Source: Cytophagaceae bacterium ABcell3 (GTDB lineage Bacteria > Bacteroidota > Bacteroidia > Cytophagales > Cytophagaceae). Taken from it: a DNA stretch of 64,000 nucleotides. Below the pieces are notes generated by a model. It ran no database searches, had not been told where the DNA came from, and saw nothing but the letters and a program-made list of their open reading frames with translations. The position numbers were made by a program, and so were the translations under genes. Positions 9,350-57,209 of this stretch are shown in pieces (positions within the stretch are counted from its first letter, which is position 1; each line of letters opens with the position of its first letter). The stretch is taken from positions 2,688,584 through 2,752,583 of the forward strand of contig CP133159.1 in the NCBI GenBank assembly GCA_030913385.1. The letters are read 5' to 3'.

Positions 9350-9544
9350 TTCTTTCCCTCCCTAAATTCGTCTTATTTATAAATAACTGGCTTAATATAT
9401 TTTTGTTAAAGTGACTAAGGGTATATATTGTTGCCTAATTTTTTAATCCTGAATGATGCGAAAGGTTTTATTATGAGGATAAAAGTAGCATAAATCAGTG
9501 CTTTAGGTATGGTCGGTAATGGAACTTGTTTGCCTCTGAGGGTA

Positions 9545-11277: not shown

Positions 11278-13068
11278 ATGAATTTAGAAGAATCGATAAA
11301 AGGAGGTATAGCACAAGCTTTTAAGGAAATTTTTCAATACGAAGTTTCTGCCGAATCACTATCTCTGCAGGATACTAGTAAAGATTTTGAAGGGAGTTTG
11401 ACTTTTGTCATGTTTCCTTATTTAAGGTATACAAAAAAATCTCCTGAAGAATCCGGTAAACTAATAGGCGCTTACTTAGAGGAGCACTTGCCGGATATAG
11501 TGGGTTATAACGTTATCAAAGGGTTTCTCAACCTTGAAGTTTCGGATTCCGCTTATCTCAATTTATTCAAAAATACCATATTGGCCGAGGACTTTGCGGT
11601 TTTTGATAAGAAATCTGAAAAAGTAATGGTTGAATATTCCTCTCCGAATACCAATAAACCATTGCATCTTGGTCACCTCCGTAATAACTTTTTAGGATAT
11701 TCTGTTTCAGAAATCTTAAAAGCTAACGGTTATGAAGTGGTGAAAGCCAACCTGATCAATGATAGGGGGATTCATATTTGTAAGTCTATGCTGGCTTACG
11801 AAAAGTTTGGCAATGGTGAAACTCCAGAGTCTTCTGGTATAAAGGGCGATCACCTTATTGGAAAGTATTATGTGGTGTTTGATAAGGAGTATAAAAAGGA
11901 GGTAGAAACCTTAAAGTCGGAAGGGGTTGAAGAGGAAGCTGCAAAAAAAGAAGCTCCATTGATGAAAGAGGCGCAGGAAATGCTGGTTAAATGGGAAAAT
12001 GGAGACAAAGAAGTCCGTGCCCTTTGGGAAAAAATGAATAACTGGGTATACCAGGGATTTGAAGAAACCTATAAGATGATAGGCGTGGATTTTGATGAAT
12101 ATTATTATGAATCTGATACCTATCTTTTAGGTAAGTCTGTTGTGGAGGAGGGTCTCAAAAACGGTACTTTTTATAAAAAAGACAATGGTTCTGTTTGGAT
12201 TGACCTGAGTAATGAAGGGTTAGACGAAAAACTGCTGCTGCGCTCTGACGGAACTTCTGTTTATATTACCCAAGATATGGGAACGGCAGATTTGAAGTTT
12301 AGAGATTATGCTATCGATAAATCCGTCTATGTGGTGGGCAATGAGCAGGATTATCATTTTAATGTTTTAAAGATTATCCTTAAAAAGCTAGGACGGAGTT
12401 ACGCCAGTGGCATTTATCATTTGTCATATGGCATGGTAGACCTTCCTTCTGGAAAAATGAAATCTAGGGAAGGAACAGTGGTTGACGCTGATGATCTAAT
12501 TAAAGAAATGCTCCAAACGGCGGAAGCGCAGACTAAAGAGCTAGGGAAGGTTGATGAATTTAATGAGGAGGAGTCTGCAAAATTGTTCAGGGTGTTGGCG
12601 CTTGGGGCATTGAAATACTTTTTGTTACGGGTTGATCCTAAAAAACGTATGTTGTTTAACCCTAAAGAGAGTATTGAATTTCAGGGAAATACCGGGCCTT
12701 TTATCCAATATACCCACGCAAGGATTTCTGCTATTCTTCGTCGGGCTGCACAGCTCAATATCAACGCTGACCCAGAATCTTTTTCTGATCTTGATAAACT
12801 TAAAGATTCTGAAAAGGAGGTTATCGTATTGTTGAGCAAATATCCAGATAAAATTAAAGAAGCGGCTGAAAACTATTCACCTGCAGAAATTGCCCAGTAT
12901 GCCTATGACCTGGCTAAAGAATATAACCGCTTTTATGCTGATGTTTCCATTTTTGGGGAAGAAAACAAGTCAGCCTTAGCTTTTAGAATTGCTTTTTCTG
13001 CGGCAGTGGCCAAAACTATTAGAAGAGCTATGTTGTTACTGGGTATTGAAGTACCAGAACGAATGTAA
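11278..13068 (+). CDS. argS: Arginyl-tRNA synthetase
   Basis: A 596-residue class I aminoacyl-tRNA synthetase of normal length. It has the ArgRS N-terminal additional domain, the HIGH-type motif HLGH (residues 130-133) after SSPNTNKPLH, and the KMSKS-type motif KMKSR (residues 393-397). The DALR anticodon-binding domain occupies the last 120 residues and ends IEVPERM. It charges tRNA-Arg in the cytoplasm. The gene stands alone, with a hairpin terminator 8 bases after the stop and a glutathione peroxidase gene downstream on the same strand. Confidence 0.98.
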   Translation: MNLEESIKGGIAQAFKEIFQYEVSAESLSLQDTSKDFEGSLTFVMFPYLRYTKKSPEESGKLIGAYLEEHLPDIVGYNVIKGFLNLEVSDSAYLNLFKNTILAEDFAVFDKKSEKVMVEYSSPNTNKPLHLGHLRNNFLGYSVSEILKANGYEVVKANLINDRGIHICKSMLAYEKFGNGETPESSGIKGDHLIGKYYVVFDKEYKKEVETLKSEGVEEEAAKKEAPLMKEAQEMLVKWENGDKEVRALWEKMNNWVYQGFEETYKMIGVDFDEYYYESDTYLLGKSVVEEGLKNGTFYKKDNGSVWIDLSNEGLDEKLLLRSDGTSVYITQDMGTADLKFRDYAIDKSVYVVGNEQDYHFNVLKIILKKLGRSYASGIYHLSYGMVDLPSGKMKSREGTVVDADDLIKEMLQTAEAQTKELGKVDEFNEEESAKLFRVLALGALKYFLLRVDPKKRMLFNPKESIEFQGNTGPFIQYTHARISAILRRAAQLNINADPESFSDLDKLKDSEKEVIVLLSKYPDKIKEAAENYSPAEIAQYAYDLAKEYNRFYADVSIFGEENKSALAFRIAFSAAVAKTIRRAMLLLGIEVPERM

Positions 13069-13796: not shown

Positions 13797-16370
13797 ATGT
13801 CGGAAAATATGCAATTCGTACACGCAAAACCTTATGCTGGATATTTATTGAAATACCACATGGAAAGTTTGGGCAAAGAAGCCTTTGAGCTTTTCAAAGC
13901 AAACAGTTTTCGTGTGCCCGAACAGTATAAATCTTATCCCGAAGAGGTTTTAATAGAAGCTACCATAAAAGATTTGGCTGTTTTCCTTTCAGGTATTATG
14001 GATGATAGCCTATGGGAGGCTTCTATGGAAAAGATAAAAAAGTGGGAAAAAGATGAATTGGATAATGTGTCTAGAGAAGAGCTTTCTCACAAAGAAGTAA
14101 CAATAATACATTCCGTTAGAAAACAAGTTCTTTTCAAATTTCTTCCAGAATATACCAATGACCCTTACCTGATTACTTCCATAGCATCAGAATTAGAGGT
14201 TTTTTATAGCCGGCTTGAGAAAGAGCTTCTTGACATTTTCCATCGAGTTAGACAACTAGAAATAGAAGAAAGCAGGATGCGGTTTAAAGCACTGTCTGAG
14301 TCTTCTTATGAGGCTATCTTTATTCATGAGAACGGGAAGATCTTATTGGCGAATTCAGCTGCTGAAAAAATATTTGGGTATTCTGCGGAAGAATTTGCCA
14401 ATCTCCGAGTGTTTGATTTAGTAGAGGATCTTGGAGAAGGTTTTTATGAAATGGATACCTTCTTGGAAGCAGAGCCAACAGTTTATAAAGGCTTATGTAA
14501 AGGTGGAAAGAGCTTTTATGCAGAAATAAAAAAACGCCAAGCAAGGTATAAAGGAAAAAGCGCTGAGGTTTTCATTGTGAGGGACATCTCGCACTTGAAG
14601 AAGATTGAAGAAAATTTAAAAAATCATAAAGAGGAACTTCAAGCTTCTAATGACCAGCTTACAAAACAGATGCTCGAAAGGGAAGAGCTTGAAGATGTTT
14701 TAAGGGAGAGAGAACAGACTTTCCGGCTTTTAGCTGAGAACTCGTCTGATATAATAGCGAGAATTGCCCCTGATGGTAGTTTTTTATATGTATCGCCATC
14801 TTCTGAAGCAATTATTGGGTTTACCCCAAGGGAACTAATCGATACTAATTTGTTTAACTATATTCCGTCAGATTTTAAGGACTTAGTGCAGCAAGCTTTT
14901 GCACGGTGCTTTTTGACCGATGATATTCAGGTAGTGGAGCATAAATTTAGGAGTAAATCTGGGGAATTGGTTTGGTTGGAGTCTACAGGGCACTCTATTA
15001 AAGGAGAAGAGGAGCAGGTTGTTGAGGTTCAGGTTGCTGCCCGTAGTATAGTCGACAGGAAGGTTGTTGAGCAGAAGCTTGATAAAGAAAGGCAGTTTTT
15101 GAAAGTCATTCTTGACAACATATACGATCCCATTATTGCTTGTAATGGGGAAGGGAAAATTATGTTCTTTAATAAGGCCGCTAGAGAACTTCATGGTGTA
15201 GGTGATACGAATGATTTTGCTGACCCTAACCAATGGTCTGAAACCTATAAACTGTTGCAGGAGGATGGAAGTACACCTTTACACGAAGACGAAATACCTC
15301 TTATGCGGGCTTTTCGTGGAGAAACTTTAAAAAATGTAGAAATTGCCAGCCAGGCAGCTTCTGGAGAGGTGCGTTTTTTTGTTACTAGTGGTCAGCCAAT
15401 ATATAACAAGCAACAAGAGAAAGTAGGAGCTTTGGTTGTTATGCATGATATTACAAGTATCAAATATGCAGAAAAAGAGCTTACGCAAAAGAACAAAGCC
15501 CTAAATGAAGCTTATAACAACCTGAAAAATGCTCAGCAGGAGTTGCAGGCAACCAACAACCTGTTAGAACACAAAGTTAGTAAGCGGACTCAAAAGCTTA
15601 ACGAGATCAATCTTAATTTAAAAAAGGAAATTTCTGAAAGGGAAAAGATAGAAAAAACCTTGCGAGAAAAAAATTATGAGCTGGTGAAAATCAATAATGA
15701 CCTCGATAACTTTGTGTATACGGCGTCTCATGATTTAAAAGCGCCTGTTTCCAATATGGAAGGTTTGGTAAATGCCTTAGCCATTGAGTCCTCTGAATGT
15801 GCCGATGAATATTTGCAGGAAATTATTGGCATGATTAATATTTCTATAGGCAAGTTTAAAGATACTTTAGATGAATTGACTGAAATATCTAAAATACAAA
15901 AAGGAATTCATGAAGACATAGACGAAATTGATGTTAAAGCATTGACTGAAGAGGTTTTGGCTAGTCTTAAAGATTTAGTCCACCGCTCTGGTGCGAATAT
16001 AAACCTTGAGTTTTCTAAAAGTACACTAAAGTTTTCCAAAAAAGACCTTCGAAGTGTGATATTTAACCTCGTAAGCAATGCCTTAAAATACAGGTCTTCT
16101 GAACGTCCCTTACAGGTGGATATAAAGGGTGGCGTTGAAGGTGAGTATTATTTGCTACAGGTCAAGGATAACGGTTTGGGTATTGACCCTGCCCATCATA
16201 AGAAGATATTCTCTATGTTTAAAAGGTTGCATGATCATGTAGAGGGTAGCGGGGTCGGCCTTTATATTGTCAAAAGAATAGTAGAGAACAATGGTGGAAA
16301 GGTTCTGGTAGAAAGTAAACCTGATGAAGGTGCTTTGTTTAAAGTTTATCTGCGCTTATTAGATACCTGA
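13797..16370 (+). CDS. Soluble multi-PAS sensor histidine kinase
   Basis: An 857-residue hybrid-free histidine kinase without membrane segments. The first ~160 residues are a helical domain of unknown type. Three PAS domains follow (about 165-275, 305-420 and 430-555), then a coiled coil (about 560-630) and a HisKA dimerisation domain with the phospho-acceptor H645 in TASHDLKAP. Last comes an HATPase domain with NALKY, DNGLGI and GVGLYIVKR boxes. This is a cytoplasmic sensor of a small molecule or redox signal read by the PAS domains. No response regulator is adjacent. The gene ends next to a 64-bp copy of the dispersed repeat. Confidence 0.92.
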   Translation: MSENMQFVHAKPYAGYLLKYHMESLGKEAFELFKANSFRVPEQYKSYPEEVLIEATIKDLAVFLSGIMDDSLWEASMEKIKKWEKDELDNVSREELSHKEVTIIHSVRKQVLFKFLPEYTNDPYLITSIASELEVFYSRLEKELLDIFHRVRQLEIEESRMRFKALSESSYEAIFIHENGKILLANSAAEKIFGYSAEEFANLRVFDLVEDLGEGFYEMDTFLEAEPTVYKGLCKGGKSFYAEIKKRQARYKGKSAEVFIVRDISHLKKIEENLKNHKEELQASNDQLTKQMLEREELEDVLREREQTFRLLAENSSDIIARIAPDGSFLYVSPSSEAIIGFTPRELIDTNLFNYIPSDFKDLVQQAFARCFLTDDIQVVEHKFRSKSGELVWLESTGHSIKGEEEQVVEVQVAARSIVDRKVVEQKLDKERQFLKVILDNIYDPIIACNGEGKIMFFNKAARELHGVGDTNDFADPNQWSETYKLLQEDGSTPLHEDEIPLMRAFRGETLKNVEIASQAASGEVRFFVTSGQPIYNKQQEKVGALVVMHDITSIKYAEKELTQKNKALNEAYNNLKNAQQELQATNNLLEHKVSKRTQKLNEINLNLKKEISEREKIEKTLREKNYELVKINNDLDNFVYTASHDLKAPVSNMEGLVNALAIESSECADEYLQEIIGMINISIGKFKDTLDELTEISKIQKGIHEDIDEIDVKALTEEVLASLKDLVHRSGANINLEFSKSTLKFSKKDLRSVIFNLVSNALKYRSSERPLQVDIKGGVEGEYYLLQVKDNGLGIDPAHHKKIFSMFKRLHDHVEGSGVGLYIVKRIVENNGGKVLVESKPDEGALFKVYLRLLDT

Positions 16371-16371
16371 A

Positions 16372-16435
16372 ATTAAACCTGAAAGATGCAATAGAACTTT
16401 TTATTACGCAATCTATCGCACAGTTTAGGTTTAAT
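16372..16435. repeat. Dispersed inverted-end repeat, short copy (copy 1)
   Basis: Perfect 9-bp inverted ends (ATTAAACCT / AGGTTTAAT) flank an inner part that begins GATGCAATAGAACTTT and ends CTATCGCACAGTTT. These are the same two end regions as in the longer copies at 32.3, 47.5 and 57.0 kb, with the middle missing. It lies between two convergent genes and could also fold into a hairpin that ends both transcripts. Confidence 0.75.
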
Positions 16436-31635: not shown

Positions 31636-31673
31636 TATATTATGATTTAAATCATCTTGGTTTATGATTATTC

Positions 31674-31701
31674 TTTTAGTTCTTTACAATAAGAACTAAA
31701 A
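31674..31701. promoter_or_regulatory. Operator palindrome before the TolC gene
   Basis: TTTTAGTTCT-N8-AGAACTAAAA: perfect 10-bp arms with an 8-bp spacer (one further pair, C/G, extends the outside). The same arms and spacer recur at 32208-32235. It is not followed by a T-run on either strand, so it is more likely an operator than a terminator. It is probably bound by the GbsR-like regulator. Confidence 0.7.
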
Positions 31702-31713
31702 GGGTAAAAAAAC

Positions 31714-32175
31714 TTATTTTTCTTTATCGAAGTCTGTCATTCGTTTCCATCTTTCAATGATAATTGGTATTTCTACCATCAGCATTTTATATAAGGTAGA
31801 GATGTTGTCAAGTTCTTTACCAAACTCATCGTCAAGTCCTCTTGTTGCGCGTACATCATCGAGTAGCGTATGCATTAATGAAAATTTTTGTGACATTTGC
31901 TGCTCGTTGTAAAATACCTTGAAATCTGCAGAAAAGTAGCGTTTTCTTTGTCCTCCAATGGTTTTAGCCTCTATCATTTGAGATGTTGTTAACCATTTGA
32001 TGGCATTAGAAATTGCACTTTTGCTTACATTGAAGTAATTTACCAAGTCATCAAAAGTTACTAATTGGTTTGGAGATAGCAGTAGGTATACAAATACCCT
32101 AGCTGCCACAGGACTTAATCCCATCCCTTCCATTATTACTCCATAATGCTCTATTTTCTCTCTATGCTGCTCCAC
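31714..32175 (-). CDS. GbsR/MarR-type transcriptional regulator
   Basis: A 153-residue winged-helix regulator of the GbsR branch of the MarR superfamily. The helix-turn-helix is at about residues 35-75 (TFDDLVNYFNVSKSAISNAIKWLTTSQMIEAK), followed by the wing (GGQRKRYFSADF). A C-terminal helical dimerisation region ends the protein. It is encoded directly before a TolC-adaptor-permease-ATPase set, the usual place for a local repressor that responds to a pump substrate. Matching palindromes lie in front of its own gene and in front of the TolC gene, which fits autoregulation plus control of the pump. The ligand is unknown. Confidence 0.88.
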   Translation of the reverse strand: MEQHREKIEHYGVIMEGMGLSPVAARVFVYLLLSPNQLVTFDDLVNYFNVSKSAISNAIKWLTTSQMIEAKTIGGQRKRYFSADFKVFYNEQQMSQKFSLMHTLLDDVRATRGLDDEFGKELDNISTLYKMLMVEIPIIIERWKRMTDFDKEK

Positions 32176-32207
32176 ATTAATTATTGTTTGGTAAAGGTAA
32201 TTAGTTT

Positions 32208-32235
32208 TTTTAGTTCTACAACAAAAGAACTAAAA
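32208..32235. promoter_or_regulatory. Operator palindrome before the GbsR-like gene
   Basis: TTTTAGTTCT-N8-AGAACTAAAA, with both 10-bp arms and the 8-bp spacer length identical to the site before the TolC gene; only the spacer bases differ. It lies 33-60 bp before the regulator's ATG. Confidence 0.7.
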
Positions 32236-32328
32236 GTTTTCTCTAAAACGTCACACAAGGTGGGTAAGTTATCATGTATATCTGATTTTTTTGTGATAGG
32301 CATGATAACGTAACATGTTGCTATAGTT

Positions 32329-32482
32329 TTAACCTGAAATATGCAATAGAACTTTCTGAAATCAGTCGCTTCGCTCACATTTGTGTCTTAACCCTAGTAC
32401 TTCTATGTTTTGCGAGCCAAAGAGCTAATTTACTGTTACTTTGATCCTCATGATAAAACCTGTCGCGTAATTAAGGTTTAAT
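32329..32482. repeat. Dispersed inverted-end repeat (copy 2)
   Basis: It begins TTAACCTGAAATATGCAATA and ends GCGTAATTAAGGTTTAA, so the ends are imperfect inverted repeats. The inner part shares the blocks ATCAGTCGCTTCGCTCACAT, CTATGTTTTGCGAGCC, CTCATGATAAAACCTGTCGC with copies 3 and 5. It has no coding frame. Its right end supplies the stop codon of the DUF262 gene (TAA at 32478-32480 on the minus strand). Confidence 0.85.
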
Positions 32483-34178
32483 CAAGCTGTGATATCCTCC
32501 AGATAGCGGAAGCCTGCCTGGCTAGCCATTTTTGATGAACCTTTATTCGGGAAGGGTTCCAGTCGCTGTTCTCTCTGGCTATTCTGTTGGTAATTTGAAA
32601 CTCACTGGTTTCGTAGCTCCTCATTTTATTTTTAAAAGAAGCATTACCAATTGACCTGTTTTCTGATTTATTTAATATCGTCATGTTCCCTAAGCGGTAG
32701 ATAAACTGCTCATGATCTTTTTCATCAATATGCGTCCATTCGTCTCCTAAAGCTTCAGGCATTATGTGTTCAATATTGTAAGAGTCACTTTCAAAGTCAT
32801 AGGAATTACCTGAAGTGTATTTTTCTATTTCAAAGAGTATATATCTGACGATTCGTTTATTTCTGGTTTGTGTTGTTCGTAGTTCTTTGTCAGAAAAGTC
32901 ATTTTTAAATTTATCATCAGATACATAAAGAGGTTTTAACGCCTCCAACATCTCTTGAATACTAGAAATTTTTCCTTCTGAAATACTTACTGCTACTTTG
33001 TTGTAGACCCTTTCTTGTTCATTTGTTGCAAGGTTTCCGATAACGTTGTAGCGGAAAGAAATCACACAACAAGCTTTGAGGAGCTTTGTAAAACCTTGGT
33101 TATCTAATTTTTGAAAGGCTGCAAGCAATAACGGGTAGAGTTGCCTTACATTAAACATTTTGAGATTTTTGATATAACCTCCTTGTTCTGGATTCCATAA
33201 ACTGTCTTCTGGGTTAGGCAGTGCGGCATAAACATCTGCATTTTTCTCAATGTCTCTAACCAAAGCGAATACTTTACCTTTTGTAGTGATTTTTTCTCTT
33301 ACTCTCTTAAACAGTTCTGAATGCCTTACAAAACGGTTTTGGCTGTTCCAATATGCACGAAGAAAATCAGGTAAGCTTCCACTACCTATTAGCCCTACTA
33401 GTCTTTCCCATCTGTTGTCCAGTTCACTCATTTCGTGTTCATCTGTTCCTTGGTTGTGTACAACTGAAAAAAGGTAATTTTTTAATAAATCTGTAGAAGA
33501 CAGTTTGACGCCTCTTGCATTTAAAGTCTCAAAAACTTTATATGCGTTTAATTCATCATTTACCGTAATAACAGTAAAAAAAAGTTTGTCGGAAAGCGAA
33601 TCGATGAATTGAGCATACACTTCTCCCTTGTTGTTAGTTTTGAACCTTTCTCGAATAGCATCAAAAAACCAGTCATATGCCTTTCTCATCAAATGCTCAG
33701 TGGCTTTAAGGTTTCTTTTAGGAGTGGGCTCTAGCGGTACTAAATACCGCTGGTACAAATTATCGTTGTTTCGGTTTAAATTGAGCTTGCTTTTGGGGAT
33801 AAGGGTGACTGGGTCTAAATACCCGATAAATGAATTCCTTAACTGAATTAATCTTTGCTGATTTTTATCCTTTTCATTATCATTGTCTATTAGCTTTTGG
33901 ATGTTTCCTAATATCGCTAAAACCAGCATGCTTAATGTGGTTAGCCTTTGCTGACCATCAATGACATCAAAGTTTTTACTGTCTTTAGACTGCAGGACTA
34001 AATAGCCCATATAGTGTTCTTGCTCTCCATCTTCTTCAAATAATAGCTCAATGTCCCTCCACAGGTCATCCCATTCTGAAGGGGTCCAGCTATAATCTCT
34101 TTGGAAACGAGGAACTGAGTAAATTAACCCGTTTCCCATCAATTGCCTATAGGTTCTATTTGAAGTGTCTAAGTTCAT
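32478..34178 (-). CDS. DUF262/DUF1524 protein (GmrSD-like type IV restriction enzyme)
   Basis: A 566-residue protein joining an N-terminal DUF262 domain (FQRDYSW at about 25-31, DGQQRLTT at 74-81, the ParB/Srx-like NTP-binding motif) and a C-terminal DUF1524 domain. The latter carries an HNH/His-Me finger motif (IEHIMPE, H471, then the YRLGNMTILNKSENRSIGN block). In E. coli GmrSD, these two halves form a GTP-dependent nuclease that cuts phage DNA with modified (glucosylated hydroxymethyl) cytosine. Fused single-chain versions are common in bacteria. It stands alone, with repeat copy 2 at its 3' end and a terminator at its 5' side, so it may be a mobile defence gene. Activity on modified DNA is inference. 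Confidence 0.87.
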   Translation of the reverse strand: MNLDTSNRTYRQLMGNGLIYSVPRFQRDYSWTPSEWDDLWRDIELLFEEDGEQEHYMGYLVLQSKDSKNFDVIDGQQRLTTLSMLVLAILGNIQKLIDNDNEKDKNQQRLIQLRNSFIGYLDPVTLIPKSKLNLNRNNDNLYQRYLVPLEPTPKRNLKATEHLMRKAYDWFFDAIRERFKTNNKGEVYAQFIDSLSDKLFFTVITVNDELNAYKVFETLNARGVKLSSTDLLKNYLFSVVHNQGTDEHEMSELDNRWERLVGLIGSGSLPDFLRAYWNSQNRFVRHSELFKRVREKITTKGKVFALVRDIEKNADVYAALPNPEDSLWNPEQGGYIKNLKMFNVRQLYPLLLAAFQKLDNQGFTKLLKACCVISFRYNVIGNLATNEQERVYNKVAVSISEGKISSIQEMLEALKPLYVSDDKFKNDFSDKELRTTQTRNKRIVRYILFEIEKYTSGNSYDFESDSYNIEHIMPEALGDEWTHIDEKDHEQFIYRLGNMTILNKSENRSIGNASFKNKMRSYETSEFQITNRIARENSDWNPSRIKVHQKWLARQASAIWRISQLD

Positions 34179-47513: not shown

Positions 47514-47548
47514 GAGCTGTTTGGGGTATGTAAAGTATGCTTTTATTT

Positions 47549-47722
47549 TTAACCTGTAACTATGAAATAGAACTTTCTATCAAGAGGAAAAATAGATCAA
47601 ATCAGTCGCTTTGCTCACATTTGTGTTTTAACCATTTCCCTGCTATGCTTGTCGGCTCAAAAGTGCTGATTTATTGCTATTTTGCTTCTCATGACAAAAT
47701 CTGTCGCGTAATTTAGGTTTAA
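47549..47722. repeat. Dispersed inverted-end repeat (copy 3)
   Basis: It begins TTAACCTGTAACTATGAAAT and ends TGTCGCGTAATTTAGGTTTAA. The inner blocks ATCAGTCGCTTTGCTCACAT, TGCTATGCTTGTCGGCTC and CTCATGACAAAATCTGTCGC match copies 2 and 5. It is about 174 bp, non-coding, and lies in the gap before the hydroxyacid dehydrogenase gene, ending about 88 bp upstream of that start. Confidence 0.85.
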
Positions 47723-56700: not shown

Positions 56701-56822
56701 TTTAACCTGAAATATGCAAATGGGACTTTCTTTCCCAGAATACTTTATATTTTAGCGATTCAAAAGTGGTTGTTTTTTGTTCTTTTGCCCCTCATAACGA
56801 AATCTAATTATCCAAGCTTAAG
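56701..56822. repeat. Dispersed inverted-end repeat, degenerate (copy 4)
   Basis: It begins TTTAACCTGAAATATGCAAA and keeps CAAAAG...CTTTTGCCCCTCATAACGAAATCTAA, shared with copy 5, but the right inverted end is eroded. It directly abuts the NarL-like gene stop. Confidence 0.7.
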
Positions 56823-57037: not shown

Positions 57038-57209
57038 TTCAACCTGAAATATGCATTAGAACTTCTATTACGTGGTAAAATAACTTATAATCAGGTGCTT
57101 CTCTCGCATTTTGTTTTTAACTATAGATCCACTATGCTTTGCAGACAAAATAGCTTATTTTTTTTCTTTTGCCTCTCATAACGAAATCTAATGCACAATC
57201 CAGGTTCAA
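57038..57209. repeat. Dispersed inverted-end repeat (copy 5)
   Basis: It begins TTCAACCTGAAATATGCATT and ends CAATCCAGGTTCAA. Both ends carry a C or G in the same place compared with the other copies, so the two ends have changed together. Inner blocks (TCAGGTGCTTCTCTCGCAT, CTATGCTTTGCAGACAAAA, CTCATAACGAAATC) match copies 2-4. Non-coding. Confidence 0.8.

Follow-up and report, generated by a model that had tools for sequence, protein, structure and literature searches.

The closest described system to the repeat analysed here is the IS1380 family of insertion sequences (DDE_Tnp_1_4, PF13701; NF033539), in particular a subgroup with CCYRAATTATGCATTAGA ends that includes elements of the genomes G300, G413 and G419 (genus g41) and of G018. 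CC..GG termini (PMC10045372) and a short target duplication are traits of this family, the duplication being reported as 4 bp (PMC10045372), and as 5 bp for the family member IS1247 (PMC3281130). Among miniature inverted-repeat elements (MITEs), MITECca01 of Cardinium cOegib belongs to the same phylum as the present repeat and resembles it in having 169 mostly intergenic copies derived from a resident IS; in contrast to the present repeat, it stems from ISCca4 of the IS982 family, is about 240 bp long and still has its parent IS (PMC9769881). By description, the BrickBuilt/MITEs of Porphyromonas gingivalis are likewise dispersed non-coding MITE-type repeats in Bacteroidota (PMC5771137). The CREE MITEs of Neisseria (Correia elements) are also short, intergenic and of high copy number, but differ in mostly having a TA duplication (PMC9330008). 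For REP palindromes, two super-families with GTAG or CGTC tags are described (PMC3733652).

The 64,000-nucleotide stretch of the Cytophagaceae bacterium ABcell3 genome that was analysed (the window) carries several copies of a repeat that shares with the IS1380 subgroup the terminal repeat, the CC..GG termini, the TTWAA target and the 5-bp duplication. Unlike those elements, it has no transposase gene and has a palindromic interior that is not seen in the IS, and its length is about 165 bp compared with roughly 1.4 kb. From these sequence comparisons the repeat is very probably a MITE of IS1380 type that a transposase of this type moves in trans. It is apparently a new and unnamed element of an already known class, and we found no paper on an IS1380 MITE in Cytophagales among open-licence papers.

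Results

Copies in the window and in the genome

The five dispersed copies that had been claimed for the window are all real. The left-end 20-mer gave 4 matches with up to 3 mismatches in the window versus 0 in 100 shuffles (copy 47553 has an indel inside this stretch and hence gave no match), and repeat families D1-D5 of a window repeat search were the same five places. The original prediction overlooked a sixth, decayed copy on the opposite strand, which was found with a profile built from 25 copies. Its five locations held but its borders did not, as the outermost letters TTTAA/TTAAA are the 5-bp target-site duplication and lie outside the element. Copy borders are given here without the target duplication:

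9448..9507 (-), decayed right-half fragment, sixth copy; profile match E=2.8e-6, model positions 105-165, sequence read
16378..16429 (+), internally deleted short copy, 52 bp; flanks TTAAA/TTTAA
32328..32332, left 5-bp target duplication TTTAA of copy 32333
32333..32476 (+), near-full-length copy, 144 bp, internal deletion near left end
32477..32481, right 5-bp target duplication TTTAA of copy 32333
47548..47552, left 5-bp target duplication TTTAA of copy 47553
47553..47717 (+), full-length copy, 165 bp
47718..47722, right 5-bp target duplication TTTAA of copy 47553
56706..56816 (+), degenerate copy, about 111 bp; flanks TTTAA/CTTAA
57038..57042, left 5-bp target duplication TTCAA of copy 57043
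57043..57204 (+), full-length copy, 162 bp
57205..57209, right 5-bp target duplication TTCAA of copy 57043

Copy 16378 lies between convergent genes, 7 bp past the stop of a kinase gene (13797-16370). The right duplication of copy 32333 includes the stop codon of a minus-strand gene for a GmrSD restriction endonuclease (32478-34178). Two near-palindromes TTTTAGTTCT..AGAACTAAAA, at window positions 31660-31702 and 32205-32249, flank a MarR-like gene (31714-32175) and are likely operator sites of this adjoining regulator.

Across the genome that contains the window (G000; a single contig of 5.115 Mb), a search for the left-end 20-mer that allowed up to 3 mismatches gave 182 matches compared with 1 for a reversed control, so that the hundreds of copies per genome extrapolated from the window were right in order of magnitude; a single copy as BLAST query found about 40 places. 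The family far exceeds five copies and does not consist of pieces of one duplicated locus. As had been proposed, the element is non-coding and intergenic: it contains no gene, and 54 of 59 profile-found copies in own-genome sequence lay wholly between predicted ORFs, a count based on mechanical ORF calls rather than curated annotation. The 20-kb stretches of this genome were picked around known copies, so they do not yield unbiased densities. Another dispersed repeat, GCAAGATACGCATGGCCTTACATGAAGACG, adjoins or truncates element copies at L021 (own genome about 4874900) and at L057 about 11400-11550.

Thirty copies yielded a consensus unit of 165 bp, CCTGAAATATGCAATAGAACTTTCTATTACG...CGAAATCTATCGCATAATTCAGG, with termini CCTG...CAGG and a central hairpin, CATAGCGCTGCTATG. 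The right end had been described as the inverted complement of the left, which is correct but understated, since the whole 165-bp consensus is an imperfect palindrome. Most two-ended copies were either about 130-167 bp or 40-70 bp long, and a few had sizes in between. The short size (about 165 bp), lack of coding capacity and terminal inverted repeats are those of a MITE, and the termini, CCTG..CAGG or CCCG..CGGG, are of the IS1380 CC..GG type.

Target-site duplications and empty sites

Exact 5-bp flanking duplications were found at 19 of the 43 two-ended own-genome copies, compared with 7.5 expected for re-paired flanks, and none of 5000 shuffles reached this number. Duplication lengths of 2-4 and 6-9 bp were not significant in the same 43 copies, so the duplication has the single fixed length expected of a MITE. 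The middle base of the 5-bp flanks agreed in 32 of the 43 copies (16.8 expected), and the duplication consensus was TTNAA; in the window, copies 32333 and 47553 are flanked by TTTAA/TTTAA and copy 57043 by TTCAA/TTCAA. The excess was also seen for copies of at least 130 bp (14/30 versus 5.2) and for relatives in other genomes and on a plasmid (12/17 versus 4.5, p=5e-5). A length of 5 bp lies within the 4-5 bp range of an IS1380-type MITE, and fits IS1380 but is not unique to that family.

In 58 related genomes, belonging to other genera of this family or to further families within its order, the element was nowhere present in quantity. A census that covered 390 genomes of this order, with matches read at the sequence level, identified true relatives in G291, G300, G377, G312, G258 and G267, some of which hold truncated or degenerate forms. 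Relatives were also present in the MAG UBA6059 and on plasmid pSD15 of Microscilla sp. PRE1 (duplication ATTAT/ATTAT), and those of the six genomes, the MAG and the plasmid share one architecture with the window element. Matches in L069 (Marinilabiliales) and several 2-mismatch census matches (L117-L119) had no second end and were set aside as chance. IMG/VR contained no exact end match, and viral spread was dropped on this ground.

The joined flanks of the G291, G300 and G377 copies were searched against 72 genomes of their genus for empty sites. The G300 copy L107 is absent from G217, where the alignment crosses the junction straight at an exact site; G324 lacks the G291 copy L104, with a clean junction and a target that itself differs by a few bases. 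At both sites only a 166-bp unit and one 5-bp repeat are missing. These clean sister-species pairs, which concern related copies in other genomes and not the window's own, show that the related copies are mobile. At the first of them (G300 L107:2990-3155 versus G217 L150) the MITE sits in the 3'-terminal part of a small ORF that apparently encodes the antitoxin of a toxin-antitoxin pair, and gives it a new C-terminus and a stop just before the downstream gene.

IS1380 elements with matching ends

IS1380-family elements were found in the genus of the MITE carrier G300. G300 itself has four near-identical copies of about 1.41 kb with ends CCTTGATTATGCAATAGGATTTCG and CCCGAATTATGCATTAGAG and a 440-aa transposase; IS1380 transposases scored well over the NCBIfam IS1380 cut-off (NF033539, 260 bits for that of G300 versus 180). 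In G300, G413, G419, G018 and G115 the ends of these elements mostly adjoin TTTAA/TTAAA. The G419 element has the same end type as G300 and TTAAA on both sides, and that of G018, a genome of the window genome's family, has ends CCCAAAATAAGCGATAGGA / CCCGGATTAAGCATTAGAA and TTTAA on both sides. Nearly all pairs of MITE and IS1380 ends were identical at 12-18 of 19 positions (lowest 11/19), with shuffle p values from below 5e-5 to 2.5e-3.

Of the partners envisaged by the original prediction, a transposase or a TnpA_REP-type protein with matching ends, the first exists as autonomous IS1380 elements in related genomes and the second was not borne out. Three queries, PF13701 and the transposases of G300 and G018, detected no IS1380 transposase in the window's own genome, while one of these searches gave hits in eight other genomes, which serve as a positive control; none was found in G291 either, which carries several MITE copies. 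A parent IS and the MITE thus share a genome in G300 but not in the window's own genome, and the interior of the MITE showed no stretch of clear IS origin. The link to IS1380 consequently rests on ends and target and, G300 excepted, not on co-residence. A co-resident parent is no strict requirement for a MITE, as MITEs can outlive their parents.

Maintenance of the palindrome

RNAalifold on a cross-lineage MAFFT alignment returned just 13 pairs because the arms of different lineages are out of register in the alignment, and a chimera-folding test was used in its place. Arms folded with partners of their own lineage gave -57.9 kcal/mol in UBA6059, -46.2 in Microscilla and -45 to -52 in G291, compared with -34.9, -31.9 and about -34 kcal/mol, respectively, with arms of other lineages. 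The far better pairing within than between lineages indicates that the sequence changed while the palindrome was retained. Within the window's own genome, single stem changes kept pairing at 0.261 versus a neutral expectation of 0.264, and many copies paired with themselves no better than with other copies. Double changes (66 versus 40) include changes shared by subfamilies and are not independent evidence.

The reading we offer is that the palindrome is maintained in the mobile lineage rather than at sites where copies are fixed. It is possible, though on balance rather doubtful, that the whole 165-bp palindrome is kept by selection acting during transposition and not in the host, and that a hairpin or cruciform, or a palindrome-restoring copying step, is part of amplification; this suggestion stems from the finding that each lineage has exchanged its arms for new, still complementary sequence, together with the neutral loss of pairing in inserted copies.

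Discussion

Target duplications, empty sites of related copies and a partner transposon with matching ends support the MITE interpretation put forward for the window. The element would be a gene-less, non-autonomous DNA transposon of about 165 bp, palindromic throughout, whose ~19-bp ends CC[TC]GAAWTATGCAWTAGAA would be recognised by an IS1380-family DDE transposase; it would insert into TTNAA, duplicate those 5 bp and decay once inserted, some copies shrinking to 40-57 bp. Mobilisation in trans by the IS1380 transposase is suggested by the ends, the target and the duplication, and by the presence of both elements in G300. The window's genome may formerly have held such an IS1380 element and lost it, and its MITE family is probably stranded now, since no IS1380 transposase was found there.

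A MITE of another DDE family, with ends that merely resemble IS1380, is very unlikely. Other DDE families also generate 5-bp duplications, and such an origin would suit a host genome in which no IS1380 transposase was detected; however, a single IS1380 subgroup agrees with the repeat, in the same order, in a ~19-bp run (12-18 positions matching), in its CC..GG termini, in its TTWAA target and in its duplication length.

We consider it highly improbable that the repeat is a host-selected RNA or DNA structure (a terminator, an mRNA stabiliser or a protein-binding site) that happens to be dispersed. The long hairpin folds with z of about -1 to -10 versus shuffles, variation is lower in paired than in unpaired columns (0.116 versus 0.187) and convergent gaps are mildly over-represented (16 of 52 copies versus 19% of intergenic bases), all of which would suit such a structure, but single stem changes keep pairing at the neutral rate given above and copies between tandem genes show no orientation bias (16 same, 12 opposite; a bias hinted at by the first 17 tandem cases was gone in the larger set). 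Divergent gaps are under-represented among own-genome copies, as expected from selection against harmful insertions. The Bacteroidota-specific RNA-level repeat that had been raised as an alternative found no support, and an RNA family was rejected on the neutral stem decay in fixed copies together with the lack of any match to Rfam covariance models at gathering score in the window.

The other alternative raised, an extragenic palindrome of REP/BIME type that spreads through a TnpA_REP (RAYT, Y1 HUH) transposase, would account for hundreds of palindromic intergenic copies but is scarcely credible, since single-strand HUH transposition makes no duplication and REP elements lack 5-bp duplications, whereas this element has exact 5-bp duplications and empty sites, the mark of DDE transposition, and has ends that match IS1380 with termini CCTG..CAGG in place of GTAG or CGTC tags. 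Arms that co-diverge yet stay palindromic, with inserted copies decaying regardless of pairing, argue against both a host RNA function and REP/RAYT.

The preferred reading as an IS1380-type MITE gives a precise identity to a dispersed repeat of Bacteroidota for which we found no name, assigns it a partner transposase family and offers a mechanism that can be tested. The repeat also provides an example of a MITE at about 180 copies in a genome with no detectable parent transposase. The co-divergence of arms across lineages offers a testable way to separate structure kept by transposition from structure kept by the host.

Some copies have shrunk to 40-57 bp, and at these short copies exact 5-bp duplications (4/11 versus 2.4 expected) were not significant. 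From its sequence, the 40-bp form may have arisen by deletion between TCTAT direct repeats present in both arms. At least 6 such 40-mers occur in the window's own genome, and near-identical forms with one deletion junction lie at separate sites, for example 846060-846099, 911726-911765 and 1578734-1578773; they would reflect either repeated slippage or a self-moving 40-bp element.
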